NCBI RefSeq assembly: GCF_900176035.1
Contig: NZ_FWWT01000019.1
Span: forward strand, 1 to 64,000
Length of the DNA: 64,000 bases
Origin: Desulfonispora thiosulfatigenes DSM 11270
GTDB taxonomy: Bacteria > Bacillota > Peptococcia > Peptococcales > Desulfonisporaceae
Direction of reading: 5' to 3'
Shown: one piece after another, positions 6,421-41,096 of the stretch
Layout: each line of letters opens with the position of its first letter
How positions within the stretch are numbered: the stretch's first letter is position 1
The notes under the pieces: generated by a model
Told to the model about the DNA's origin: nothing
Database searches by the model: none
Seen by the model: the letters and a program-made list of their open reading frames with translations, nothing else
Position numbers and translations under genes: made by a program

Positions 6421-6460
6421 TGAACATTTGTTTTGTAAAACCAAATATCGTTCGTATATT
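6421..6460 (+). promoter_or_regulatory. candidate PurR box in the xpt promoter region
   Basis: TGAACATTTG (6421-6430) faces AAATATCGTTCG (6443-6454), an imperfect inverted pair that resembles the CGAAC core of Firmicutes PurBoxes. The core promoter (-10 TATATT at 6455-6460) overlaps it. The 9-mer ATCGTTCGT recurs before the PbuG-like gene at ~12131. The spacing differs from the B. subtilis arrangement, so this is tentative. Confidence 0.4.
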
Positions 6461-6467
6461 ATGCTGC

Positions 6468-6592
6468 CTATATAAGTTTGATAATATGGATCAAGCGTCT
6501 CTACTTAGTAACCGTAAATTACTAAACTATGGGTAGTTTATATTATTGCTCCAGGCTTTTAATATAAACTCCCAAACCACTGGGAGTTTTTT
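6468..6592 (+). promoter_or_regulatory. guanine riboswitch with transcription terminator, upstream of xpt
   Basis: The aptamer (6468-6536) has the purine-riboswitch core: CTATATAAG, AATATGG, GTCTCTAC, ACCGTAAA and ACTATGGGTAG. The C in AACTATG is the specificity base of guanine/hypoxanthine (not adenine) aptamers. Behind it, AGTTTATATTA can pair with TAATATAAACT as an antiterminator. That arm overlaps the terminator AACTCCC/GGGAGTT plus T-run (6567-6592). The antiterminator also overlaps the closing P1 strand, so guanine binding should favour termination and lower xpt expression. This is the B. subtilis xpt layout. Confidence 0.95.
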
Positions 6593-6634
6593 GTTTTGTT
6601 AAGGATAAATCATAAATAGAAAGGAATAAAAATT

Positions 6635-7207
6635 ATGAAAATATTACAAGAAACAATCAGAGAAAAGGGTAAAGCTATTGGGAAAGAAATCTTAAAAGTA
6701 GATAATTTTCTTAATCATCAAATAGATGTTAAATTGTTAAATGAAATTGGAAAAGAATTCAAGAGACGTTTTGGCTCGAAAGAAATTACGAAGATTTTAA
6801 CTATTGAAGCTTCTGGAATTGCAATAGCCTGTCTTACAGCTCAATATTTTGATAATGTACCAGTTGTTTTTGCCAAAAAGTTAGAAGCTAGTAACCTAGA
6901 TCAAGATGTCTATGAAAGTGAAGTGCATTCATTTACGAAGAATAAAACATACAAAATTAGAGTTTCTAAGAACTATATTAATAAGGATGATAAAGTATTA
7001 ATTATAGATGACTTTTTAGCTCATGGAAAAGCTGCTAGTGGCTTAATTGAAATCGTGGAACAAGCAGGAGCTAAAGCTGTTGGTGTGGGTATTGTAATAG
7101 AGAAGTATTTCCAAAATGGTCGTAAGTTTATCTTAGATAAAAATGTCCAATTAGAATCCCTTGCAATCATAGAATCCTTAGATAATGGGAAAGTTAACTT
7201 TAAGTAA
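6635..7207 (+). CDS. xpt: xanthine phosphoribosyltransferase
   Basis: A 190-residue salvage enzyme converting xanthine plus PRPP to XMP, which GuaA (at 1382) can then make into GMP. The PRPP motif [16 protein letters not shown] near residue 125 and the N-terminal FLNHQID match Xpt from Bacillus. ATG 6635 follows AGAAAGGAAT. It is directly downstream of a guanine riboswitch. In B. subtilis xpt is paired with pbuX; here the partner is instead a BMP-type ABC importer 200 bases downstream. Confidence 0.95.
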
Positions 7208-7361
7208 TTAAATTTAGGGTCATAAATTAAATCATCAAGAAAGCATAAATTAAGACATAAAAGTAAGCAATGCAATAAGCATTAAATCAAGAACTAAAAT
7301 AAGAAATAATTTAAGCCGTAAATTACGACATGAAAATAAGACTTAAATTAAACAATAAATA

Positions 7362-7393
7362 GGGAAGGTTTGTTATTAAATAAACCTTTCTTA
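7362..7393 (+). terminator. weak terminator-like hairpin between xpt and bmp genes
   Basis: GGAAGGTTTGTT pairs with AATAAACCTTTCTT. The tail is not a clean T-run. It separates xpt from the importer operon but may allow read-through. Confidence 0.5.
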
Positions 7394-7420
7394 AATAAAA
7401 AATAAAAGGAGGAATTTTTA

Positions 7421-8536
7421 ATGATGAAAAAAATTAGCTTATTATTAGTATTAGTAATGTTATTATCTATTTTTATGGTTGGCTGTGATAATAAGCAAGA
7501 AGAAGACAAAAATCAAGAAAAAGCAGGTTTAAGTAAAGAAGATATCAAGGTAGGTTTTATATATGTAGGTCCAATCGGTGATGGTGGATATACATATGCT
7601 CATGATCAAGGAAGATTATACTTAGAAGAAAAATTAGGTGTAGAAACAATTTATGCTGAATCTGTTGAAGAAGGACCTGGATGTGAAAAAGTATTAAATG
7701 ACATGATTGATCAAGGATGTAATGTTATTTTTGCTACAAGTTATGGATTTATGGATTATGTAGAAAAGGTTTCTAAGTCTAACCCAGAGGTAAAATTCCT
7801 ACATTGTTCAGGATATAAGATGACAGAAAACATGGGTAATTATTTTGGAAGAATGTATGAAGCTCGTTATTTATCAGGTATTGTAGCTGGACTTAAAACA
7901 GAAAGTAATGAGATTGGATTTGTGGGTGCTTTTGATATTCCAGAGGTAGTACGTGCTATAAACGCATTTACTTTAGGGGTTCAGTCAGTTAATCCAGATG
8001 CTGTTGTTAAGGTGAAATGGACAAACACTTGGTATGACCCAACTAAAGAAAAAGAAGCGGCAATTGCATTATTGGATGAAGGAGCAGATGTTATAGCTCA
8101 GCATCAAGATACAGCTGGACCACAACAAGCAGCTGAAGAAAGAAATGCGTTTTCTATTGGATATAATACTGATATGAAAGAAAAAGCTCCAAAAGCATAT
8201 ATGACTTCAGCAGTATGGAACTGGGGCCCTTATTATGTAGATCAAGTACAAAAAGTAATGGACGGAACTTGGAGTGCAGAAAGTTATTGGGGATCTATGA
8301 ATGACGATATTATTGGCTTAGCTCCATTAACAGAAAATGCACCTGAAGGAGCAAAGGAAGCTATTGAAAAAGCAAAAGCTGATATTTTAAGTGGTAAGAC
8401 AAAGATATTCGCTGGACCTCTAGTTGATCAAGAAGGTGAAGTTAAGGTAAAAGAAGGCGCAGAAATGACAGATCAAGAACTGTTAGAATTTAACTGGTTT
8501 ATTAAAGGAATAGAAGGAAAAATTGAAACAAAATAA
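7421..8536 (+). CDS. BMP-family lipoprotein, nucleoside-binding component of ABC importer
   Basis: A 371-residue extracytoplasmic binding protein. The signal peptide ends in the lipobox MVGC (Cys near residue 22), so it is membrane-anchored. The mature part begins KVGFIYVGPIGDGGYTYAHD, typical of the BMP/PnrA family that binds purine nucleosides. The first gene of a four-gene ABC operon (binding protein, double ATPase, two permeases). Start at ATG 7421 or 7424 behind AAAGGAGGA. Its place between xpt and the purine permease supports nucleoside uptake over the other possible ligands of this family (riboflavin, autoinducer-type molecules). Confidence 0.88.
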   Translation: MMKKISLLLVLVMLLSIFMVGCDNKQEEDKNQEKAGLSKEDIKVGFIYVGPIGDGGYTYAHDQGRLYLEEKLGVETIYAESVEEGPGCEKVLNDMIDQGCNVIFATSYGFMDYVEKVSKSNPEVKFLHCSGYKMTENMGNYFGRMYEARYLSGIVAGLKTESNEIGFVGAFDIPEVVRAINAFTLGVQSVNPDAVVKVKWTNTWYDPTKEKEAAIALLDEGADVIAQHQDTAGPQQAAEERNAFSIGYNTDMKEKAPKAYMTSAVWNWGPYYVDQVQKVMDGTWSAESYWGSMNDDIIGLAPLTENAPEGAKEAIEKAKADILSGKTKIFAGPLVDQEGEVKVKEGAEMTDQELLEFNWFIKGIEGKIETK

Positions 8537-8562
8537 TAGCTAAAAAGAAAACAGGTGATTAG

Positions 8563-10095
8563 ATGAATAGTAAAGCGTTTATATCAATGCAAGGTATAAC
8601 TAAAACATTCGGTTCAGTCATAGCGAACAAAAATGTAAACTTAACTGTAAATAATGGTGAAATACATGCTTTACTAGGTGAAAATGGTGCTGGTAAAAGT
8701 ACCTTAATGAACATGCTGTCAGGGGTTTATATCCCTGATGGCGGTTCTATTTTTATTCATGGTACGAAAGTTAGTTTTACTTCACCTAAAGATTCCATAA
8801 ATGCTGGGATAGGTATGATTCACCAACATTTTAAGTTAGTAGATGTTTTAACTGCTAAAGAAAATATAATGTTAGGTCAAAAAACAGGATTTTTTCAAAA
8901 CAAGAAAAAGTTATCAGAAAGGATAATGGAATTATCGAATAAATATGGGTTAAATATTGATCCTGATAAAAAGGTATACAATATGTCAGTTGGAGAAAAA
9001 CAAACCTTAGAAATTTTAAAGGTTTTATATAGGGGTGCAAACATTTTAATTCTAGATGAGCCCACTGCTGTTCTTACACCGCAAGAAACCAAAAATCTTT
9101 TCAAAATAATGAAAAAAATGAGAGAGTCAGGTTGTGCGGTTATTTTTATAAGTCATAAAATGAATGAAGTAATGGAAGTAGCTGATAGAGTCACAGTCCT
9201 TCGAAAAGGTGAAACTATTACAACAGTAAATAAGGAAGATACTAATCCTCAAAAACTAACTGAATTAATGGTTGGAAGACCTGTTGTTTTATCAATTGAA
9301 CGAGTTATAAATGAAAATAAAAGCAAAATCCTTGAGGTAGAAAACTTAACCTGTATAGATTCGGAAAATGTAAAAAAACTAAGAGGAATTTCTTTTGATT
9401 TATATAGTGGTGAAATTTTAGGCGTTGCAGGAATTGCTGGAAGCGGTCAAAAAGAGATATGTGAGGCTATAGCAGGACTTTATCCTATTAAAGAAGGGAA
9501 AATCTTATTTAAAGGTGATGACTTAGTTGGTAAGACTCCTAGAGAGATAATTACTAAAGGTGTAAGTATGAGCTTTATTCCAGAAGATCGGTTAGGTATG
9601 GGCTTAATTCCTTCAATGGATATTGTCAGTAATTTAATTTTAAAACAATATCAAAAACAAAAAGGATTTTTAATAAATCGCAAACCTTCTGAACAAAAGG
9701 CTCATGAAATTGTTAAAAAGCTAGAAATAAAAACGCCAGGTATTAATCATCCTATTAAAGAATTATCAGGAGGAAACATTCAAAAGGTACTACTTGGCAG
9801 AGAATTAGATATAAATCCAGATTTATTAATTACAGCTTATCCTGTTAGAGGATTAGATATAAATACCTGTTATAAAATTTATGATCTTTTAAATACTGAA
9901 AAGAAAAAGGGCGTAGGAATTTTATATATAGCTGAAGATTTAGATGCTTTAATTGAATTATCTGACCGCATTATGGTGCTTTCTGGTGGAGAGATATCTG
10001 GAATTGTTGATGCTGATAAGACAACTAAGGAAGAAATAGGATTACTTATGTTAGGAGAAAAATTTACTAAGCGTGAGGGTGTTAATGTTGATTAG
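8563..10095 (+). CDS. double-domain ABC ATPase of nucleoside importer
   Basis: A 510-residue protein with two ABC modules, powering the importer from the cytoplasmic side. Module 1 has Walker A GENGAGKST (near residue 39), signature MSVGEKQ and Walker B ILILDEPT. Module 2 has a degenerate Walker A (GIAGSGQKE), signature LSGGNIQK, and a Walker B ending in ITAYPVRGLD where the usual DEPT glutamate is missing. That asymmetry is normal for YufO/NupA- and RbsA-like ATPases. ATG 8563 follows ACAGGTGATTAG. Overlaps the first permease gene by ~11 bases. Confidence 0.92.
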   Translation: MNSKAFISMQGITKTFGSVIANKNVNLTVNNGEIHALLGENGAGKSTLMNMLSGVYIPDGGSIFIHGTKVSFTSPKDSINAGIGMIHQHFKLVDVLTAKENIMLGQKTGFFQNKKKLSERIMELSNKYGLNIDPDKKVYNMSVGEKQTLEILKVLYRGANILILDEPTAVLTPQETKNLFKIMKKMRESGCAVIFISHKMNEVMEVADRVTVLRKGETITTVNKEDTNPQKLTELMVGRPVVLSIERVINENKSKILEVENLTCIDSENVKKLRGISFDLYSGEILGVAGIAGSGQKEICEAIAGLYPIKEGKILFKGDDLVGKTPREIITKGVSMSFIPEDRLGMGLIPSMDIVSNLILKQYQKQKGFLINRKPSEQKAHEIVKKLEIKTPGINHPIKELSGGNIQKVLLGRELDINPDLLITAYPVRGLDINTCYKIYDLLNTEKKKGVGILYIAEDLDALIELSDRIMVLSGGEISGIVDADKTTKEEIGLLMLGEKFTKREGVNVD

Positions 10096-31327: not shown

Positions 31328-31564
31328 GTTAAATAAGTATAATTTATTTGTTATACATTTAACAAAACATTAAGTGAATTGTTATCAATATAATGAGAAA
31401 TATATATATTTAATAAATAAAAGAAATAAGATAACAGTATTTTACAAAGTGTTCGTTACTTAATAGAATAGTATTAAAGATTCAGACAATTAGAGGGAAA
31501 GAGATTATAAACTAATTTTAAGGTGTTAAAGTTGATTTAAATGTTAAAGATGGGGGTTGATATT

Positions 31565-32569
31565 ATGGATACTAAAAAAATAATACCGGGTTTATTATTT
31601 ACAACTGCATTAGCTTGGGTTTCAATAAAAATCCAAAACTTAGAAGTATTACAAAATATGCACTTAAGCTCATTAATTGTAGCGATAGTGTTAGGTATGT
31701 TAATCAAGAATATATTGCCAGTTCCTGAAACTTTTTCTGCAGGGATTACTTTTTCAGTAAAGCGTGTTTTAAGATTAGCAATTATATTATTAGGTTTTAA
31801 ATTAAGTTTTGCAGAGGTAACACAAATTGGTGGTAGAGGATTTATTTTAGTATTTTTTGTTACTATCATTACCATTTTATTTACTGTTTGGTTAGGTAAA
31901 AAAATGGGTTTAGATGATAAATTAGCTTTACTAATTGGAGCAGGATCTTCAATATGTGGAGCATCAGCAATTGCAGCCGTAGCCCCAGTCGTTGATGCTG
32001 ATGAAAGAGATACTACTTTTGCAATTGCAACTGTAACCATTTTTGGAACCATAGCAATGTTTGCTTTCCCTTTTATGTATAAAGTATTTCATTTACCAAA
32101 TCTGCTATACGCAGTTTGGGCAGGATCATCTATTCATGAAGTTGCTCAAGTGGTAGCTGCAGGGTTTGCTGCAGGAGATGAAGCAGGACAGTTTGCAACT
32201 TTAATAAAATTAACGAGAGTATTATTAATCATACCGATAGCAATCTTTTTAGGAGTTAAAGAAGCTAAGAAAAAACAAAATGGAAAAACAATTAGCATGA
32301 AGCAAATAACTATACCTTGGTTTGTATTTGGGTTTTTAGCAGTAGTAATAATTAATTCAATTAACATAGTACCTCAAAACTTAACAGGTCAATTTCTTGC
32401 TATCGATGCATTTTTATTAACAATTGCAATGGGTGGTATGGGGCTGTCAACAGATCTAGAAAAAATGAAAAAGGTAGGAATGAAACCTTTTTACCTAGGA
32501 CTTACTACTTCAGTGTTTATCGCAGTTTTAGGATTTGCAGCATCTAAACTATTATTTACTGGATTTTAA
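31565..32569 (+). CDS. YeiH/UPF0324-family membrane protein, copy 1
   Basis: About 334 residues with ~9 hydrophobic segments. GAGSSICGASAIAAVAPV is the family signature of YeiH (putative sulfate exporter family, transport role not settled). I choose ATG 31565, eight bases behind GGGGG; the ATG at 31541 is too far from its nearest ribosome-like sequence. A second paralogue lies at 33363, so this organism carries two in a row with a small gene between. The ~290 bases before the start contain no gene I can see. Confidence 0.85.
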   Translation: MDTKKIIPGLLFTTALAWVSIKIQNLEVLQNMHLSSLIVAIVLGMLIKNILPVPETFSAGITFSVKRVLRLAIILLGFKLSFAEVTQIGGRGFILVFFVTIITILFTVWLGKKMGLDDKLALLIGAGSSICGASAIAAVAPVVDADERDTTFAIATVTIFGTIAMFAFPFMYKVFHLPNLLYAVWAGSSIHEVAQVVAAGFAAGDEAGQFATLIKLTRVLLIIPIAIFLGVKEAKKKQNGKTISMKQITIPWFVFGFLAVVIINSINIVPQNLTGQFLAIDAFLLTIAMGGMGLSTDLEKMKKVGMKPFYLGLTTSVFIAVLGFAASKLLFTGF

Positions 32570-32607
32570 AATGAAATAAATAAATTATTATTCACTGAAA
32601 TGAAGTT

Positions 32608-32650
32608 TATGCCTCCTAGCTAAAAATTTTAATTAGTTAGGAGGTATCTT
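32608..32650 (+). terminator. hairpin behind YeiH copy 1
   Basis: GCCTCCTAGCTAA pairs with TTAGTTAGGAGGTA around AAAATTTTAA, with a weak tail (TCTTTATG). Confidence 0.6.
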
Positions 32651-32776
32651 TATGAGCTTATAAGCATAAGATATTTTTATAATAATGATAATTAGGTTAT
32701 AATAGATTCGATAGTTACATTATTAACAAGGATAAAATTTAAAAGATTGAAAATACTATCTATGGAGGTAAGGTAA

Positions 32777-33175
32777 ATGAAACGAATATTTTGTATTTTA
32801 CTTTGGTTTATAACTTTAGTTGTAATCGCATTTTCTCTATTTAATACTCTTTCTTTCCAATACTTCTGGGCGGTAATTATATTTTTAAGTATTTATTTTG
32901 GTTTAAATACATCTCAAGAAATTAAGATATCAGATGAAATGAGCCATCAAATAATTACATGGGTAAATAAATATAAACAGTATTCGTATTGTGAACGCCA
33001 ATGGTTTTTAGAAAAAGTAGTTAATAGGTCTGTAGCCAGTAATAAATCACAAGAAGCTATTAAATTTTTAAATTATATCCTAAAAGCAGAACCTGATAAT
33101 GATTTAGCTAAAAACTTAATGGTATCAATCTGGGGAATGGAAGTTTTAAATACTTATACTCAAAATAAAAGGTAA
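32777..33175 (+). CDS. small membrane-anchored hypothetical protein
   Basis: A 132-residue protein with two N-terminal hydrophobic segments (about residues 4-22 and 27-44), then a soluble, helix-rich tail that could be a single TPR-like repeat (EAIKFLNYILKAEPDNDLAK). ATG 32777 follows ATGGAGGTAAG. It has its own terminator. It lies between two YeiH paralogues, but the sequence gives no direct evidence of shared function. Confidence 0.6.
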   Translation: MKRIFCILLWFITLVVIAFSLFNTLSFQYFWAVIIFLSIYFGLNTSQEIKISDEMSHQIITWVNKYKQYSYCERQWFLEKVVNRSVASNKSQEAIKFLNYILKAEPDNDLAKNLMVSIWGMEVLNTYTQNKR

Positions 33176-33201
33176 TGACAAAATGTCATTGCCTTTTTTT
33201 G
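33169..33201 (+). terminator. terminator of the 32777 gene
   Basis: GGTAATGACA pairs with TGTCATTGCC around AAA, followed by seven T. The stem overlaps the stop codon. Confidence 0.9.
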
Positions 33202-33362
33202 TCTATAAGCAAAAGGTAAGATATTTCACAAGGTGATTAGTAAATTTTATACCTAATACTTTTTAAAGATGATGTTTGAAATAAAAATAATAGATTTTAC
33301 AGGTGAAGCTTAAATGTTTAGAATATTATTAATAGTTAGATAAATAATAAGGAGGAAATCAA

Positions 33363-34391
33363 ATGAGCGTTAAAAGCAATATTTTACCTGGTCTTGTGTT
33401 AGCAGGTGTAATTGCCGGAGTATCTCAGTACCTGGAAGAATTGATTGTTATAGGAGGACAGCATCCGATAAGTGGAGTAATTCTTGCAATTTTGATAGGT
33501 ATTCTTATTAAAAATACAGTCAAAGTTGGCGATTCATTTCAACCAGGAATTCGTTTTGCATTACAAAAAGTTTTAAAAGGTGCTATTATTTTGTTAGGAT
33601 TAAGTTTAAGTTTTACAGCTGTTCTAAAAACAGGTGCTGATGCATTAATAATTATTTTAATCTGTGTAACTGCTGCTATTTCTTTAACCTTTTTTATTGG
33701 TAAGAAAATGGGATTACCAGATAAGTTAGCAGCCTTAATTGGTATTGGTTGTGCAATTTGTGGATCAACTGCTATCTGTGCAGCAGCTCCTGCAATTGAA
33801 GCTGAAGATGAAGATGTAACATTTTCGGTTGCAACGATTACTCTTTTTGGTGTAGTAGCAATCTTCCTTTATCCAATAATCGGTAAAATGTTATTATTAA
33901 CAGACATGCAATTTGGTACTTGGTCAGGTATTGCTGTACATGAAACGGCTCAAGTTATTGCAGCTGGATTTGCTTATAGCGATGAAGCAGGTAAAATTGC
34001 GACTGTTGTAAAATTAACTCGTACAGTTTTATTAGCACCACTAGTATTAATATTTGGTATTATTTATGCAAGACAAAAGCAAGGTTCAACTACTCAAAAG
34101 GTAAATTATTTAAGAATATTCCCTTGGTTTGTTTTAGGTTTCATTGCATTAGCTATTTTCCGTACTTATGGTGATACAATTTGGATGGATAGCGCTCAAT
34201 GGACTGCATTCTTAGCTCAAGGTAAAACTATTGCAAAATTCTTAATTGTAGTAGCTATGGCTGGTGTTGGACTATTAACAAACTTTGAAGACATGAAAAG
34301 AGTAGGTATTAAACCGTTTATAGTTGGCTTAATTGCTTCAGTAATAATGGCAGTATTTAGTATTATTTTGGTTTATGCTTTAGGTATATAG
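33363..34391 (+). CDS. YeiH/UPF0324-family membrane protein, copy 2
   Basis: A 342-residue paralogue of the 31565 gene with the same layout and the matching signature GCAICGSTAICAAAPAIEAE near residue 140. Shared segments include KVLKGAIILLGLSLSF and AVHETAQVIAAGFA. ATG 33363 follows AAGGAGGAA. The copies are clearly diverged, so they are old paralogues rather than a recent duplication. The substrate is unknown; sulfite/sulfonate export is suggested for the family. Confidence 0.85.
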   Translation: MSVKSNILPGLVLAGVIAGVSQYLEELIVIGGQHPISGVILAILIGILIKNTVKVGDSFQPGIRFALQKVLKGAIILLGLSLSFTAVLKTGADALIIILICVTAAISLTFFIGKKMGLPDKLAALIGIGCAICGSTAICAAAPAIEAEDEDVTFSVATITLFGVVAIFLYPIIGKMLLLTDMQFGTWSGIAVHETAQVIAAGFAYSDEAGKIATVVKLTRTVLLAPLVLIFGIIYARQKQGSTTQKVNYLRIFPWFVLGFIALAIFRTYGDTIWMDSAQWTAFLAQGKTIAKFLIVVAMAGVGLLTNFEDMKRVGIKPFIVGLIASVIMAVFSIILVYALGI

Positions 34392-34459: not shown

Positions 34460-34488
34460 TTGACAAATACAATGATTTTATGTAATAT
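34460..34488 (+). promoter_or_regulatory. promoter of the glycine-riboswitch/liv operon
   Basis: TTGACA (34460-34465) and TAATAT (34483-34488) with a 17-base spacer, ~45 bases ahead of the riboswitch. Confidence 0.8.
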
Positions 34489-34539
34489 TTAAACATTGCT
34501 ATATTTGTAATATTAAAACTTAATACTCGTGGGATGAAG

Positions 34540-34790
34540 GTTACAGGAGAAGAACTTAGTTCTGCCGAAGGGTTATGATTTTAAATAATCGAAGATCTCA
34601 GGCTTCCTAACATGGAAAAGTACTGTAACTGGACCAGCCTCTGGAGAGACCTATTAAATTAGGCGCCGAAGGAGCAAATCTATTTTGTAAACCTTTTATT
34701 TTCTTAGTTGAGTAAAGATAATCAATAAGAGAAGAAAAATGGTTATAATTAGATAAACTCTCAGGCAAAAGGACAGGGGATGTGAGAATA
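34540..34790 (+). promoter_or_regulatory. tandem glycine riboswitch
   Basis: Aptamer 1 (34540-34629) is closed by GTTACAG/CTGTAAC and holds TCTGCCGAAGG and ATCTCAGGC with a short inserted hairpin. Aptamer 2 (about 34636-34790) has the classic GGAGAGACC, GCGCCGAAGGAGCAA and CTCTCAGGCAAAAGGACAGG. The two are joined by a short linker, as in glycine-binding tandem riboswitches. A terminator lies ~90 bases downstream at 34874. These switches usually turn on glycine cleavage genes; here the target is a Liv-type ABC importer. Confidence 0.95.
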
Positions 34791-34873
34791 ATAAGATATA
34801 TAAGTTAATATTATATCTTATTTGTGATATATTTTTTTTGAAATATATCTTCGCACTCCTGAGAATTTATCCA

Positions 34874-34907
34874 AAGAGGCTAAGTAGATACTTAGTCTTT
34901 TTTTATT
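34874..34907 (+). terminator. terminator of the glycine riboswitch expression platform
   Basis: GGCTAAGT pairs with ACTTAGTC around AGAT, followed by seven T. The region between the aptamer and this hairpin (34791-34870) holds further AT-rich inverted repeats that could form an alternative structure. Whether glycine turns the operon on or off cannot be read safely by eye. Confidence 0.85.
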
Positions 34908-34972
34908 GGTAAAAAAGGTTGAGGCAGCTTAAATTTAAGTTTTAAAAAACTAAATAATTTGGAGGAATTTTA

Positions 34973-36151
34973 ATGAAAAAGTATTTAGCACTAATTTTAA
35001 TTATTTGTTTATTTGTACCACTAGGATTAACTGGTTGTGGGTCAAATGGTCAATCATCAGATCTTAAAAAAGTAAAAATAGCTTATGTAGGACCAATTAC
35101 TGGACCAAATGCTGCAATTGGACTTGGAATGAGAAATTCAGCGGAACTAGCAGTTAAGCAAGCGAATGCAAAGAAAGATCTACCTTTTGAACTTGAATTA
35201 GTTGTTTTAGACGATCAAAGTGATCCAGCTGTTGCTGTAAATGCAGTTAATATGGCAGCAAGTGATCCAGAAATTTTAGCTACTGTAGCCCATTTTAATA
35301 GTGGATGTGCTCTTGCTACAAAGGATGTATTTAATAAATATGGTCTATCAGCTGTAATTTTATCTGCGATCAATGATAAAATTACTGAGGATGGTTATGC
35401 TGAAATTACGCGTGTTATAGCTGCTTCTAAATTACAAAATACTTTTGCAGGTGATGTAGCAGTAAAAGATTTTGGAGTAAAGAAAATTGCTGTAATTCAT
35501 GACCAAACAGATTATGGTAAAACTAATGCAGAGCAATTTATTGCAAAGGCAAAAGAAAATGGTGCTGAAATGCTGTGTTTTGAAGGAATTGCAGTAGGAC
35601 AACAAGATTTTTCATCATTACTTACAAAAATTAAATCCTTAAATCCAGAAATGATCTTTTTTGGAGGATTAGCTACAGAAGCAGCTTTAATTAAAAGACA
35701 AATGAATGAAAGTGATATTCCAGCTATCTTAATGAGTGACTCTGGTATTCACACGGATACTTTTATAGATATAGCGAAAGACTTAGGAGAAGGTACTTTA
35801 TGTAGTGGATTAATTAGTCCTATTGAAGATTTACCAAAAGGCCAAGATTTTATCAAAGCTTATGAAGAAGCTAAATATAAAGATTATTATGAAGCATTTG
35901 GACCTTTTGCTTACGATGCTACTAATATCGTTATAAAGGCTTTACAAGATGCTGAGAAACTCGATAGAGAAAGTATAACGAAGGCTATCAAGTCAACTAA
36001 AGATTATGAGGGTGTTCTTGGGACAACTACATTTGATGAAAGTGGACAAACAAAATTAAATACAGTTATTACTTATGTAGTTAAGGACGGAAAATGGGTT
36101 CCTTTCAAAGACTCTGGTTTAACTATAACTGAAGGTCAATATAAAAAATAA
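34973..36151 (+). CDS. Liv-type ABC importer, substrate-binding lipoprotein
   Basis: A 392-residue periplasmic-binding-protein type I family member. The signal peptide ends in lipobox LTGC (Cys near residue 22). The mature part has KVKIAYVGPITGPNAAIG, typical of LivJ/LivK-like proteins that bind branched-chain or other amino acids or amides. ATG 34973 follows TTGGAGGA. First gene of the operon, controlled by a glycine riboswitch. A hairpin behind it (36168) would keep it more abundant than the permeases. The glycine control suggests that its ligand is glycine or a glycine-containing compound, which is inference. Confidence 0.9.
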   Translation: MKKYLALILIICLFVPLGLTGCGSNGQSSDLKKVKIAYVGPITGPNAAIGLGMRNSAELAVKQANAKKDLPFELELVVLDDQSDPAVAVNAVNMAASDPEILATVAHFNSGCALATKDVFNKYGLSAVILSAINDKITEDGYAEITRVIAASKLQNTFAGDVAVKDFGVKKIAVIHDQTDYGKTNAEQFIAKAKENGAEMLCFEGIAVGQQDFSSLLTKIKSLNPEMIFFGGLATEAALIKRQMNESDIPAILMSDSGIHTDTFIDIAKDLGEGTLCSGLISPIEDLPKGQDFIKAYEEAKYKDYYEAFGPFAYDATNIVIKALQDAEKLDRESITKAIKSTKDYEGVLGTTTFDESGQTKLNTVITYVVKDGKWVPFKDSGLTITEGQYKK

Positions 36152-36167
36152 TTAAATATTAGTTTTA

Positions 36168-36209
36168 TGAATTGTAGACTTGTTATTAAAGTCTACAATT
36201 CATTTTTTA
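36168..36209 (+). terminator. attenuating hairpin between binding protein and permeases
   Basis: TGAATTGTAGACT pairs with AGTCTACAATTCA around TGTTATTAA, followed by six T. It probably causes partial termination inside the operon. Confidence 0.85.
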
Positions 36210-36225
36210 GAAGGGAGCAAATTAT

Positions 36226-37155
36226 ATGGTTGATACGGCTGTAATTATTCAGCAGATATTAAATGCCTTAAGTTTAGGAGCAATGTATGTATTAGTAGCT
36301 GTGGGCTTTACATTGTTTTTTGGAGTTATAGATATTATCAACTTTTCTCATGGTGAAATTTTTATGTTGGGAGCATTTATTGCTTTAACAACGATAGGAT
36401 TTTTTGCGGGAACTGGTTTTTTAACACAGCACTATATTTTAGTTTTTATTATTGTTTTATTAGTAACTGTTATTTTAAGTGGTCTAGTAGGTAGCGTAAT
36501 AGAACGAACAATTATTAAACCGATGCGTGGAGCATCTGATTTAATGCTGCTATTATTAACCTTAGGTGTTTCTATTATTATTCGTGAAGGTGTAATGATT
36601 TTTTACCCTAATGGGGCTAATCCACAATCATTTCCTGACCTATTTCCGAATGAAAGCTTAACAATTTTTAATGTTGTTATTAAATATGAGCAGATATTTA
36701 TCATTGCTTTATCTTTGTTTTTAGTGATTTTGTTGCATTTATTTGTAACAAAAACAAGATATGGACGATATATGTTAGCAACCTCACAAGATAAAGAGGC
36801 AGCTATGATGATGGGTATTAGTATTGATAGAATTATAATTTTAACCTTTTTTATTGGTTCGGCACTTGGAGCAATTGCAGGTCTTATGAACGGTATTTAT
36901 TATAATATTATAAAATTTAATATGGGCTTCTTAATAGGCATAAAAGGATTTTCAGCAGCGGTAGTTGGTGGCCTTGGTAATATTTATGGAGCTATTGTAG
37001 GTGGATTTTTATTAGGATTTTTAGAAATGTTTGCGGCAGCCTTTATTCCTGGGGGCTCAAGGTATCAAGACGTAATTGGATTTGTAATTGTAATATTATT
37101 TCTTGTTTTTAAACCATCGGGTATTTTTGGTGAAAAGGTGTATGAAAAAGTATAA
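36226..37155 (+). CDS. livH: Liv-type ABC importer permease LivH
   Basis: A 309-residue membrane protein with about eight hydrophobic segments. NALSLGAMYVLVAVGFTLFFG and IINFSHGEIFMLGA near residue 43 are the hallmark LivH segments, and the cytoplasmic loop MLATSQDKEAAMMMGI couples to the ATPase. ATG 36226 follows AGAAGGGAGC. Second gene of the riboswitch operon; livM is 12 bases downstream. Confidence 0.93.
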   Translation: MVDTAVIIQQILNALSLGAMYVLVAVGFTLFFGVIDIINFSHGEIFMLGAFIALTTIGFFAGTGFLTQHYILVFIIVLLVTVILSGLVGSVIERTIIKPMRGASDLMLLLLTLGVSIIIREGVMIFYPNGANPQSFPDLFPNESLTIFNVVIKYEQIFIIALSLFLVILLHLFVTKTRYGRYMLATSQDKEAAMMMGISIDRIIILTFFIGSALGAIAGLMNGIYYNIIKFNMGFLIGIKGFSAAVVGGLGNIYGAIVGGFLLGFLEMFAAAFIPGGSRYQDVIGFVIVILFLVFKPSGIFGEKVYEKV

Positions 37156-37167
37156 GGAGGTGTTTGT

Positions 37168-38379
37168 ATGAATATAAAAATGAAACATATTATTAGCATT
37201 ACGTTAATGGAGATAGTTGCTTATGTATTATTGCTAAGCATTATAGTAGTTGAAGATTATTTAATATCTGCATTTTTAGTTTTAGCGACAACGATAGGTT
37301 TTAGTATGTTTAAAAAGAAACAGGCTAATTCATATGAGAAGATAAAGAATTTATTCGAGGATAATAAAATTTTCTCATATATAGTTTTATTTATTTTAGT
37401 ATGTACCTTTCCAATCTTACAAGCACATAATCCATATTGGATTCAAGTAGCGATAATGGTTTGTTTATATATTATGATGTCTTTAGGTCTAAATGTTATG
37501 GTGGGAAACACTGGACTTACTTGCTTAGGTTATGCTGCCTTTTATGCAATTGGAGCTTATACATATGGAATTTTAGCAAGTAGATTTGGCTTATCTTTTT
37601 GGCTTTGTATACCGATTTCAGCTTTATTTGTAATGGCTTTTGGATTTTTACTGGGTTTACCGGCTCTAAGAGTTAAAGGTCATTACCTTGCTTTGGTAAC
37701 TATTGCTTTTGGGCTTGTAGTCTACCAATTAACTATCAATTTAGAAAATTTAACGGGTGGAGCTAATGGATTAATGAATATTCCTGCTCCAAGTATTGGC
37801 GGATACTCTTTTAATTCTCCTTTAAATTTAGGATTTATTAATTTGCCTTTTCATGCTAATTATTTTTATTTATCTTTAGTTTTTGTTGCAATTGCTATAT
37901 TGGTAGTAAATCGCTTATCACATTCTTTAACAGGTTTAACCTTAAATGCAATACGTGAAGACCAATTAGCCGCACAGTGTTATGGTGTGGACTTAACTAA
38001 AAACAAATTGTGGGCTTTTGCTTTTGGCGCAATCTTTGGTGGAGTTGCCGGAACCATTTATGCAGGAATGGTAGGATTTATTGCTCCAGAGAACTTTACT
38101 TATCATCATTCTATTTTAATTTTAAGTATGATTTTATTAGGTGGAATTGATTCCATTCCCGGTGTCATCTTAGGAGCAATAATTTTAACTATTGTACCGG
38201 AAAAATTTAGAGCCTTTGCAGATTATCGTATGATGTTTTATGGATTAACTATTGTCTTAATTCTCTTATTTAAAAATGACGGTTTAATCCCTGCTCGCAC
38301 ACGCAAGTTTACTTCTAAATGGAAAAGCAGGCCACAGGGGCAGAAAAATCATCTTACTATATATAAAGTAGGGAAGTGA
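37168..38379 (+). CDS. livM: Liv-type ABC importer permease LivM
   Basis: A 403-residue permease with an N-terminal extension of about 80 residues that contains two extra hydrophobic segments, common in LivM. The core includes SLGLNVMVGNTGLTCLGYAAF and LRVKGHYLALVTIAFG. The loop LNAIREDQLAAQCYGVDL is the coupling segment. The end is basic and hydrophilic. ATG 37168 follows AAGGAGGTG. Confidence 0.93.
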   Translation: MNIKMKHIISITLMEIVAYVLLLSIIVVEDYLISAFLVLATTIGFSMFKKKQANSYEKIKNLFEDNKIFSYIVLFILVCTFPILQAHNPYWIQVAIMVCLYIMMSLGLNVMVGNTGLTCLGYAAFYAIGAYTYGILASRFGLSFWLCIPISALFVMAFGFLLGLPALRVKGHYLALVTIAFGLVVYQLTINLENLTGGANGLMNIPAPSIGGYSFNSPLNLGFINLPFHANYFYLSLVFVAIAILVVNRLSHSLTGLTLNAIREDQLAAQCYGVDLTKNKLWAFAFGAIFGGVAGTIYAGMVGFIAPENFTYHHSILILSMILLGGIDSIPGVILGAIILTIVPEKFRAFADYRMMFYGLTIVLILLFKNDGLIPARTRKFTSKWKSRPQGQKNHLTIYKVGK

Positions 38380-38383
38380 AAAT

Positions 38384-39157
38384 GTGGAATTATTAAAGAC
38401 AACAAATCTAACAATGCAATTTGGAGGACTCGTTGCTGTTAATAAAGTTAGCTTTAATTTAAATAGGGCTGAAAATATTGGAATTATTGGTCCTAATGGA
38501 TCAGGTAAAACTACATTTTTTAATTTATTAACAGGAATTTACGAGCCAACTGGCGGTGATATTATATTTGAAGGTAAAAAAATTAATGGCTCTAGACCTG
38601 ATTATAATTATAATTTAGGAATTGCTAGAACATTTCAAAATGGTCGTTTATTTTGGAAATTAAATGTATTAGAAAATGTAATGATGGGGCTACATACAAA
38701 GCAAAAAAGTTTTCTGTGGGATGCTGTTTTCCGGACTAAAAAAGAAAGGCAAGAAGAAAAAGAAGCTGTTGAGAGTGCACGAGAAATTTTAGGGTTTTTT
38801 AGTAAAAAATTATTAGAACAACAAGATAAATTAGCCAGTGACCTTTCATATGCTGATCGCAGAAGACTTGAAATATGTCGGGCTTTAGTTTCTAAGCCTA
38901 AATTACTTATTTTGGATGAACCATCAGCAGGCATGGATCCTAATGAAACCCTTGAATTAGTAGAAGATATAAAAAAGATTAGAAAAATAGAAGAAGATAT
39001 ATCAATTATTGTAATTGAACATGATATGGGACTAATTGAGGGTTTAGCTGATCGGGTAATCTGCTTTAGTTCTGGGGATAAAATTGCTGAAGGAAGTTTT
39101 AACGAAGTAAGTAAAGATAAAGAAGTTATTCGTGCTTACTTAGGGGAGGACGAATAA
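38384..39157 (+). CDS. livG: Liv-type ABC importer ATPase LivG
   Basis: A 257-residue ATPase: Walker A GPNGSGKTT near residue 36, signature LSYADRRR instead of LSGGQ (normal for LivG, which usually reads LSYGxQR), and Walker B LLILDEPSAGM near residue 178. The start is GTG 38384 behind AGGGAAG; the overlapping ATG is out of frame. It abuts livF. Confidence 0.93.
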   Translation: MELLKTTNLTMQFGGLVAVNKVSFNLNRAENIGIIGPNGSGKTTFFNLLTGIYEPTGGDIIFEGKKINGSRPDYNYNLGIARTFQNGRLFWKLNVLENVMMGLHTKQKSFLWDAVFRTKKERQEEKEAVESAREILGFFSKKLLEQQDKLASDLSYADRRRLEICRALVSKPKLLILDEPSAGMDPNETLELVEDIKKIRKIEEDISIIVIEHDMGLIEGLADRVICFSSGDKIAEGSFNEVSKDKEVIRAYLGEDE

Positions 39158-39889
39158 ATGCTAGAACTAAAAAATATCACTACACACTATGGCTCAATTA
39201 GAATTTTAAGGGATGTTAATTTAAAAGTAAAAAAAGGTGAAATCACATGCCTTCTAGGAAGTAATGGAGCAGGAAAAAGTACGACGATTAAAACAATTAT
39301 CGGCCTTGTGAAACCTAGTTCAGGTGAAATATATTTTGAAAATGAACGTATAGATAGTATTAATACACCAGAAATAGTTAAGAAAGGGATAGCTACTGTA
39401 CCAGAAGGCAGGAGATTGTTTCCAAAGTTAACTGTTGAAGATAATTTATTAATAGGGGCTTGTACTTTAAAGGATCAAAAAAAGATCCAAGCTAATCTAG
39501 AAAAATCTTATAGTATCTTCCCTAGATTAAAAGAAAGAAGAAGTCAAACTGCTGGAACATTAAGTGGGGGAGAGCAACAAATGGTCGCTATGTGCAGGGC
39601 TCTCATGAGTGAACCTAAACTAATTCTAATGGATGAACCTTCTTTAGGTTTAGCTCCTATTCTTATTAAAGAAATATTTGAGACTATTGTGAAGGTCAAG
39701 AATGAACTAGGAACATCAATTTTTCTAATTGAACAAAACGCACATAAGGCTATTGAAATAGCAGACCATGTTTATGTAATTCAAAAAGGAGAAATTATCT
39801 TAGAAAGTAGTGGAGATGAAAAAATAAATAAAGAAGAAATAGAAAAGGCTTACTTGCACAAAAACACTGAAAAGTATGGAACGAGGTGA
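39158..39889 (+). CDS. livF: Liv-type ABC importer ATPase LivF
   Basis: A 243-residue ATPase with Walker A GSNGAGKST near residue 36, PEGRRLFPKLTV (the LivF marker), signature LSGGEQQM near residue 136 and Walker B LILMDEPSLGL. It starts at ATG 39158, immediately after livG, with AGGGGAGGA upstream. It completes the five-gene importer (binding protein, LivH, LivM, LivG, LivF). Confidence 0.95.
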   Translation: MLELKNITTHYGSIRILRDVNLKVKKGEITCLLGSNGAGKSTTIKTIIGLVKPSSGEIYFENERIDSINTPEIVKKGIATVPEGRRLFPKLTVEDNLLIGACTLKDQKKIQANLEKSYSIFPRLKERRSQTAGTLSGGEQQMVAMCRALMSEPKLILMDEPSLGLAPILIKEIFETIVKVKNELGTSIFLIEQNAHKAIEIADHVYVIQKGEIILESSGDEKINKEEIEKAYLHKNTEKYGTR

Positions 39890-39894
39890 TAGAT

Positions 39895-41067
39895 ATGAAT
39901 GTTGACGAAATATATAGCTTACTAGAACAAGAAAAGGCTATTAAATTATTACAACAGATGCTACAAATGAATACAACTAATCCACCTGGAAATGAAGAAC
40001 CTTTAGCTAAATTTATCAGTAATTATTTAAATGAGCATGAAATTGAAAGCTATATCGATGAATTAGAAGTAATGCGTGCAAATGTGATTGGTGTTATCAA
40101 AGGAAATGGTGAAAATAAGGATTTATTATTTAATGGACATTTAGATGTAGTGCCTACAGGTGAATCTAAATGGAGGCATGATCCTTTTAGTGGAGTAATA
40201 GAAGATGGAAAAATTTATGGACGTGGGGCATCAGATATGAAGGGTGGCCTAGCTGCCATGATTATAGCAGCGTGCTTAGTGAAAAAAGCTGATATAGAAT
40301 TAAAAGGAGATTTATTAATTACAGGTACAGCTGGAGAAGAATTTGATAGCATAGGAGCTAAAGATTTACTTACAAAAGAATGTCTAAAAAATGTAGGAGT
40401 GGCGGTAATAGCTGAACCAAGTGAATTAAAACTATTTACTGCTACCAAGGGAACCCTATGGTTAAGTTTTGAGACCTTTGGAAAAACTGCACATGGGTCT
40501 ATGCCTGAGTATGGTAATAATGCTATTTTACAGATGAATAAGTTAATTACAAAAATAAATGAATATAAATTTATGTATAAACAGCATCCGTTATTAGGAC
40601 ATCCTACAATTAATATAGGTACATTAGAGGGTGGAGTAAAAACTAATGTTGTGCCAGATCATTGTAAAATAACAGTAGATATACGTACAATTCCTGGGCA
40701 AGATAATGAAACTATTATTACTGATATGCAGAATATTATAAATGATTTAACAAGAGAAAACGAAGGATTTAACTGTTCCTTAAAGGTTATTAATAATCGT
40801 CATCCCGTAGAAACAGATATTAATGATTCTTTTGTTAGTATGGCAATTAAGGCTGCAAAAAAATCTTTAGGTAAGGATTTAATTCCATTAGGGGTGAATT
40901 TTTACACTGATGCCTCAATTTTTGTACATAACTTAAAGATTCCAGCAATTATATTCGGACCAGGAGATGAAAGGCTAGCACATCAACCTGATGAATATGT
41001 CGAAACTCAAAAATATTTAGATTCTATAAAATTTTATATCTCGATAATATTGGAATATTTAACATAA
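39895..41067 (+). CDS. M20-family amidohydrolase/peptidase (ArgE/DapE-like)
   Basis: A 390-residue zinc amidohydrolase. Metal ligands lie in NGHLDVVP (near residue 84) and GRGASDMKGG (near 113); GTAGEEFDS (near 147) holds the catalytic Glu. The dimerisation domain follows, then the C-terminal ligand His in GDERLAHQPDE. I choose ATG 39895 behind GAGGTGA. Last gene in the riboswitch-liv operon, 5 bases after livF. It cleaves N-acyl amino acids or dipeptides in related families; the context suggests release of glycine or another amino acid from an imported conjugate, which is inference. Other M20 activities (succinyl-diaminopimelate, acetylornithine) are not excluded. Confidence 0.88.
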   Translation: MNVDEIYSLLEQEKAIKLLQQMLQMNTTNPPGNEEPLAKFISNYLNEHEIESYIDELEVMRANVIGVIKGNGENKDLLFNGHLDVVPTGESKWRHDPFSGVIEDGKIYGRGASDMKGGLAAMIIAACLVKKADIELKGDLLITGTAGEEFDSIGAKDLLTKECLKNVGVAVIAEPSELKLFTATKGTLWLSFETFGKTAHGSMPEYGNNAILQMNKLITKINEYKFMYKQHPLLGHPTINIGTLEGGVKTNVVPDHCKITVDIRTIPGQDNETIITDMQNIINDLTRENEGFNCSLKVINNRHPVETDINDSFVSMAIKAAKKSLGKDLIPLGVNFYTDASIFVHNLKIPAIIFGPGDERLAHQPDEYVETQKYLDSIKFYISIILEYLT

Positions 41068-41096
41068 AAGATAGGTTTATGCCTATCTTTTTTTAT
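41067..41096 (+). terminator. terminator of the liv-M20 operon
   Basis: AAAGATAGG pairs with CCTATCTTT around TTTATG, followed by a run of T. Confidence 0.93.

Follow-up and report, generated by a model that had tools for sequence, protein, structure and literature searches.

In a 64,000-nucleotide (nt) window of the Desulfonispora thiosulfatigenes DSM 11270 genome (contig NZ_FWWT01000019.1; coordinates below refer to this window unless a locus is named), a tandem glycine riboswitch precedes a five-gene importer of the Liv (HAAT) type and a gene for an M20 metallo-amidohydrolase. We tentatively read this operon as a glycine-repressed uptake-and-release unit, in which an N-substituted glycine is imported and glycine is freed from it by the M20 enzyme, and give this reading a little less than an even chance. 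A narrower form, with a HAAT importer dedicated to N-acyl- and N-carbamoyl-glycines and its own M20 deacylase under glycine-OFF product feedback, would be a conjugate-salvage route undescribed in the accessible literature, and is possible but doubtful.

The glycine riboswitch

The leader contains the following elements, all on the + strand:

34460-34488, +, promoter-like site TTGACA-N17-TAATAT (consensus scan, 10/12 matches)
34539-34630, +, divergent glycine aptamer 1; an additional hairpin (CTTCC..GGAA) lies ahead of AAGTAC (homology)
34631-34786, +, glycine aptamer 2 (RF00504) with a long P3 extension (Rfam, 62.9 bits, E 1.1e-10)
34636-34642, +, aptamer-2 P1 5' strand AGCCTCT, common to P1 and antiterminator (complements 34875-34881)
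34774-34786, +, P1 3' strand and extension CAGGGGATGTGAG, pairing with P1 or with 34849-34861 (partition-function folding by length)
34849-34861, +, CTTCGCACTCCTG, pairs with the extended 3' strand of P1 (folding)
34875-34881, +, antiterminator 3' arm and at the same time terminator 5' arm, AGAGGCT (folding; matching arms in other leaders)
34873-34902, +, intrinsic terminator of the riboswitch, 13 bp with T tract (predicted -12.6 kcal/mol)

Aptamer 2 scored far above the RF00504 gathering score of 32 bits, and the canonical core positions, GGAGAG, GCCGAAGGAGCAA and CUCUCAGGCAAAAGGAC are present in the Rfam alignment. Aptamer 1 fell below the Rfam threshold and was not reported as a separate aptamer even at an E-value of 10. 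Its motifs are a P1 (GGUUAC/GUAAC), AGGAGA, GCCGAAGG and CUCAGGC. In alignments it corresponds to the first aptamer in the leaders of the other Liv operons and of the genome's own AgcS gene; among these related leaders the first aptamer passes the threshold in the AgcS leader (39 bits) and in L024 (38.4 bits). Because of this homology aptamer 1 was accepted as real, and by its motifs the window riboswitch is a tandem one with a divergent first aptamer, for which glycine binding is predicted. In all five leaders compared (window 34595-34625, L004, L005, L024 and the AgcS leader L001) aptamer 1 has an additional hairpin, placed between CUCAGGC/U and the G-rich P1 junction, and its Rfam score seems to be lowered by this hairpin. 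Promoter-like sites were no commoner than chance in the region, and the one listed is supported by its position alone.

The AgcS symporter gene lies behind the second tandem glycine riboswitch of the genome. The window leader shares 79% identity with the leader of this gene (stretches compared: window 34525-34910 and L001 1395-1715) and 60-62% with Liv leaders from other genomes, aligned in pairs. Given this difference, the AgcS and Liv leaders of D. thiosulfatigenes appear to share recent history, which suggests riboswitch duplication or gene conversion inside one genome.

The importer and amidohydrolase genes

Downstream of the riboswitch terminator the operon is composed of:

34973-36151, +, lipoprotein substrate-binding protein (SBP), PF13458 (closest solved relative Atu2422)
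36167-36203, +, terminator-like hairpin between SBP and LivH genes, 15 bp with T-tract (terminator scan)
36226-37155, +, LivH-type permease, PF02653 (family profiles)
37168-38379, +, LivM-type permease, PF02653 (family profiles)
38384-39157, +, LivG-type ATPase (family profiles)
39158-39889, +, LivF-type ATPase (family profiles)
39895-41067, +, M20 metallo-amidohydrolase, ArgE/DapE subfamily TIGR01910 (family profiles; GTG 39886 is an alternative start)
41066-41091, +, intrinsic terminator directly 3' of the M20 gene (terminator scan)

One PF13458 binding protein, two PF02653 permeases and two ABC ATPases thus stand in one operon, a complete HAAT/Liv gene set, with spacings of 74, 12, 4, 0 and -4 nt from the SBP gene to the M20 gene. 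For the latter, the ATG at 39895, behind GAGGTGAT, appears the more likely start than the GTG at 39886. The operon probably ends after the M20 gene, since the terminator at 41066-41091 is found there, and the hairpin between the SBP and LivH genes could possibly be an attenuator giving an excess of binding protein. An earlier note on this DNA had described a tandem glycine riboswitch with terminator, followed at short spacings by a five-gene Liv-type importer and an M20 amidohydrolase, and both the riboswitch and the gene order were borne out by the profile matches, with aptamer 1 identified by homology.

Conservation and rarity of the gene order

The same note had suggested looking for the order riboswitch-liv-M20 in other genomes. 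The order riboswitch, SBP, LivH, LivM, LivG, LivF, M20 was complete in three genomes, namely the window genome (G000), G087 (locus L004) and G079 (locus L024). In a fourth, G071, the riboswitch and the SBP, LivH and LivM genes run to a contig edge, and LivG, LivF and an M20 gene whose product is 52% identical to the window M20 lie on another contig, where LivG stands at the beginning of the retrieved stretch; the two contigs were taken to be adjacent. These four genomes, Clostridia-like and distantly related, fall in different families, and the M20 gene was present in every genome with a Liv riboswitch whose operon end could be read. Relatives of the window SBP were 75% and 66% identical in genome contigs, both behind a glycine riboswitch, and a third in the phylum sample was 62-63% identical. 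Given that the identity among the linked units is 62-75% for the SBPs and 52-60% for the M20 enzymes, the riboswitch-Liv-M20 arrangement is a conserved unit, and chance fails to account for the conserved gene order. The next-closest importers (L027-L032, SBP identity 34-42%) had neither the riboswitch nor this type of M20 in the stretches read, and no further orthologs were found in the orders of G087, G079 and G071, which hold 1-4 genomes only.

Glycine catabolism was considered as a common denominator of the four genomes and rejected. GDC-P was found only in G000 and G087, GRDB only in G079 and G087 and neither in G071, and because of this uneven distribution a shared catabolic route fails to explain the operon.

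Glycine riboswitches were found in 221 of the 398 genomes of the phylum. The genes downstream of 90 other glycine-riboswitch loci, a sample that favours high-scoring aptamers and in which genes were named by similarity to seeds themselves named from sequence, were GcvT (35), GcvPA (4), TrxB- or GrdE-like genes of glycine reductase operons (30), AgcS (7), SerC (6), an alanine-glyoxylate-type aminotransferase (3) or unclassified (5). Catabolic genes thus followed 69 of the 90 switches and Liv genes none. The accessible published studies report control of glycine cleavage, of glycine reductase, of serine metabolism and of AgcS-type transporters (PMC3766115, PMC6944388, PMC12452182, PMC11477304, PMC2211319), and glycine switches before transporters (AgcS) are already known. 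A Liv importer is not named as a glycine-switch target in the accessible open literature, a search that left subscription papers and supplementary tables outside and is no proof of priority. The riboswitch class and the parts are known, the combination is new, and the importer-M20 target is apparently undescribed.

The binding protein, the M20 enzyme and the likely substrate

The best solved relative of the SBP is Atu2422, both by sequence and by predicted fold. The pockets of the four SBP orthologs were aligned with those of Atu2422, LBP, TM1135 and the Brucella leucine binder, and positions are given in Atu2422 numbering. F77, S79, Y150 and L202 of Atu2422 are kept in all four orthologs; S79 and Y150 presumably belong to the carboxylate side of the HAAT pocket. 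At positions 102, 121 and 226, which we take to be the alpha-amine contacts in HAAT amino-acid binders, all four solved binders and several other homologs (L006-L011) carry T, D and D/E, and the four orthologs carry I, S/A/I and S. The corresponding residues of the window SBP are I133, S152 (variable) and S257, and the free-amino-acid signature is absent.

The Liv SBPs of a sister clade (L027-L029) share I102 and S226 with the window SBP and differ from it at 77, 121 and 202. Their operons adjoin dihydroorotase, aspartate carbamoyltransferase, carbamate kinase and xanthine-dehydrogenase-like genes. Because of these neighbours their ligand is probably one without an alpha-amine, such as orotate, and the loci are candidates for orotate-type uptake and fermentation islands. 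By analogy with this clade, the ligand of the window SBP should be a carboxylate without a free alpha-amine.

The M20 enzyme passes TIGR01910 (314 against 217.6 bits) and PRK08588 (328/289) and misses the equivalog cut-offs for DapE and ArgE (AcOrn-deacetyl 217/297.7, dapE-gram_pos 150/304), and its predicted fold matches best E. faecium DapE and E. coli ArgE. The putative metal ligands H85, D117, E152, E177 and H366 (numbered from GTG 39886) are kept in the linked orthologs. The closest M20 outside the operon (L164, 52%) adjoins a PucR regulator and an amidohydrolase and no lysine or arginine cluster, and some other relatives adjoin nucleoside- or sugar-type importers; given these neighbours, the window M20 looks catabolic rather than biosynthetic. 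The reaction that we infer for it is hydrolysis of N-acyl- or N-carbamoyl-glycine, and the loss of amine-holding residues in the SBP together with an apparently intact M20 favours a putative substrate of this type.

Two of the M20 relatives deserve mention. In L164 (8111-13744, - strand) the M20 relative and the amidohydrolase are accompanied by a 415-aa protein without Pfam or NCBIfam match and by the PucR regulator, possibly a hydantoin or ureide island. In D. thiosulfatigenes itself a paralog (L074, contig C20, 1267-2424) has altered metal-binding motifs (ITMKGG, DGEDV, CKPTD) and is perhaps non-catalytic.

A serious rival, although on balance unlikely, is an importer for free small neutral amino acids (glycine, alanine, serine, proline, gamma-aminobutyric acid (GABA)) that is repressed by glycine, with the M20 as a loosely connected peptidase or deacylase. 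Atu2422 binds glycine, serine and GABA (PMC6819510, PMC7411573), its residues F77, S79, Y150 and L202 are retained, and the other glycine switch of the genome precedes AgcS, a small amino-acid symporter; against this, T102, D121 and D/E226 of the four solved binders are replaced in 4/4 orthologs and the M20 gene accompanies the importer in every genome with a readable operon end. The neighbours of the sister operons L027-L029 and of the M20 in L164 would fit a cyclic or carbamoyl product of purine or pyrimidine breakdown (hydantoin, hydantoate, formiminoglycine) in place of an N-acyl-glycine in the narrow sense. The operon, however, has no cyclic amidohydrolase, its M20 is of the ArgE/DapE type and at 77, 121 and 202 its SBP pocket is unlike that of the sister clade, which makes such a substrate improbable. 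The family names, taken from Liv and DapE/ArgE models, would imply a normal importer of branched-chain amino acids with a terminal DapE/ArgE biosynthetic enzyme. This is very improbable given that all five proteins miss the NCBIfam Liv cut-offs (score/cut-off: SBP 172/477, LivH 176/379, LivM 279/366, LivG 260/362, LivF 264/441), that the SBP lacks the canonical amino-acid contacts, that a glycine switch is a poor fit and that no lysine or arginine genes adjoin.

Predicted direction of the switch

The 5' strand of the aptamer-2 P1 (AGCCUCU, 34636-34642) is complementary to AGAGGCU (34875-34881) in the 5' arm of the terminator. When the growing window transcript was folded by partition function, P1 (0.96) was lost to downstream pairing, the antiterminator (0.62) appeared once the 5' arm of the terminator had emerged, and the terminator (0.95) followed. 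The sequence P1, antiterminator, terminator was obtained in 5/5 leaders folded length by length (window, three other Liv and the own AgcS), and at the corresponding length the antiterminator probability was 0.86-1.00 in the three other Liv leaders and the AgcS leader. Locking of P1 by a ligand should thus promote termination, and the riboswitch of the Liv-M20 operon is predicted from these folds to be an OFF switch, presumably also in vivo. This direction is a predicted refinement of the earlier description.

A score of at least 18 for the match between P1 5' strand and terminator 5' arm was reached by 4/7 AgcS, 2/4 Liv, 1/5 SerC and 0/35 Gcv/Grd leaders. The OFF signature was thus present in 6/11 importer and 0/35 catabolic leaders (Fisher's Exact Test, p = 5e-5, with leaders that are not fully independent), and 6/11 is likely an underestimate because the automatic terminator caller chose the wrong hairpin in L004. 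The AgcS glycine switch of Streptococcus pyogenes is OFF by experiment (PMC5829553), and a review states that the AgcS-type switches of Vibrio and S. pyogenes are OFF and reports those of catabolic operons as ON (PMC11477304). The prediction for the AgcS-type leaders agrees with the S. pyogenes experiments. The same complementarity was observed in the SerC leader L049 (score 20), where glycine may likewise switch off serine/glycine synthesis.

That the riboswitch is an ON switch of an operon for the use or detoxification of excess glycine would be in line with the 69/90 sampled switches that precede catabolic genes, ON in the studied cases according to the review (PMC11477304), but it is the least probable alternative of all, since 5/5 leaders are predicted to be OFF from their anatomy and folding, the signature occurs in 0/35 catabolic leaders and an importer turned on by its own product would be unusual.

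Proposed mechanism

In the uptake-and-release unit that we propose, the antiterminator 34636-34642/34875-34881 would form at low glycine, and importer and M20 would be made. The ligand captured by the lipoprotein SBP would be a small carboxylate that lacks a free alpha-amine; an N-acyl- or N-carbamoyl-glycine is the most likely one. LivHMGF would carry the conjugate inside and the co-made M20 would cut its amide to yield glycine. At high glycine, binding to aptamer 2 would lock P1, the terminator 34873-34902 would form and transcription would stop, closing the feedback loop.

Several observations weigh against this reading. The link in G071 depends on two separate contigs. The P1 5' strand/terminator match of the window is by itself not rare, being reached by 131/1000 shuffles, and when the window, AgcS and L024 leaders were each compared singly with shuffles of the whole downstream leader, the ungapped match was significant in none of them; the case for OFF therefore rests on the set of leaders. 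In the full-length window leader the P1-forced fold beats the antiterminator-forced fold by 4.5 kcal/mol, and antitermination must therefore be kinetic. The ligand is assigned by sequence comparison only, the SBP model has only moderate confidence (mean pLDDT 77.5, low at 259-265), and D256, which adjoins the lost acid position 226, is invariant; D256 could possibly substitute as amine holder, keeping the free-amino-acid reading alive. PRK08588, which the M20 passes, is named succinyl-diaminopimelate desuccinylase, and no NCBIfam equivalog names the substrate of the M20.

The earlier note had proposed import of glycine or of a glycine conjugate, either acyl-glycine or glycyl peptide. The layout and a glycine-yielding import are supported by the conservation in four genomes, the predicted OFF switch and the AgcS switch. 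As to the type of conjugate, the lost SBP residues and the linked M20 point to N-acyl or N-carbamoyl compounds. Glycyl peptides and dipeptides were considered and are unlikely on the same sequence grounds, since they retain the free amine whose holding residues the SBP has lost.

An ABC importer with an amidohydrolase widens the glycine-riboswitch regulon. The transporters of this large family are routinely annotated as importers of branched-chain amino acids, and because the ligand of the switch is known, it offers a clue to what they carry. Should the substrate indeed be an N-acyl-glycine, anaerobes would have a route for salvaging glycine conjugates, and this would suggest how amine-free ligands could be told from amino acids in HAAT binding proteins.

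Other features of the window

Just upstream of the operon (31541-34391) a small open reading frame without assigned function lies between two permease genes of the YeiH family (PF03601). At 6448-10095 a purine riboswitch is followed by an xpt-like phosphoribosyltransferase gene and then by genes for a PnrA/Bmp-like binding protein and an ATPase, all named from their sequence, which looks like an ordinary purine salvage operon.

Comparison with known systems

The operon resembles the AgcS (sodium:alanine symporter) switches of Vibrio cholerae, S. pyogenes and C. difficile (PMC5829553, PMC11477304) in its aptamers, transporter target, terminator and OFF logic (predicted here), but its target is a five-gene HAAT ABC importer with an M20 hydrolase, whereas AgcS is a one-gene symporter. 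With the Liv/HAAT branched-chain importers it shares the SBP-H-M-G-F gene set and the domains; it differs from them in scoring below the Liv cut-offs, in an SBP without the alpha-amine contacts and in the glycine riboswitch in front. Atu2422, the Agrobacterium GABA/Gly/Ser binder and template of the glycine sensor GlyFS, is the best match in sequence and fold, with the HFNSG motif, F77, S79, Y150 and L202 in common, but its T102, D121 and D226 are I, S/A/I and S in the window SBP orthologs. A precedent for the layout is the C. difficile unit of lysine riboswitch, YfcC antiporter and M20D amidohydrolase, in which, according to PMC11477304, an amino-acid riboswitch, a transporter and an M20 enzyme are likewise combined in one apparent operon, although there the switch responds to lysine, the transporter is a secondary one and the M20 belongs to subfamily M20D.

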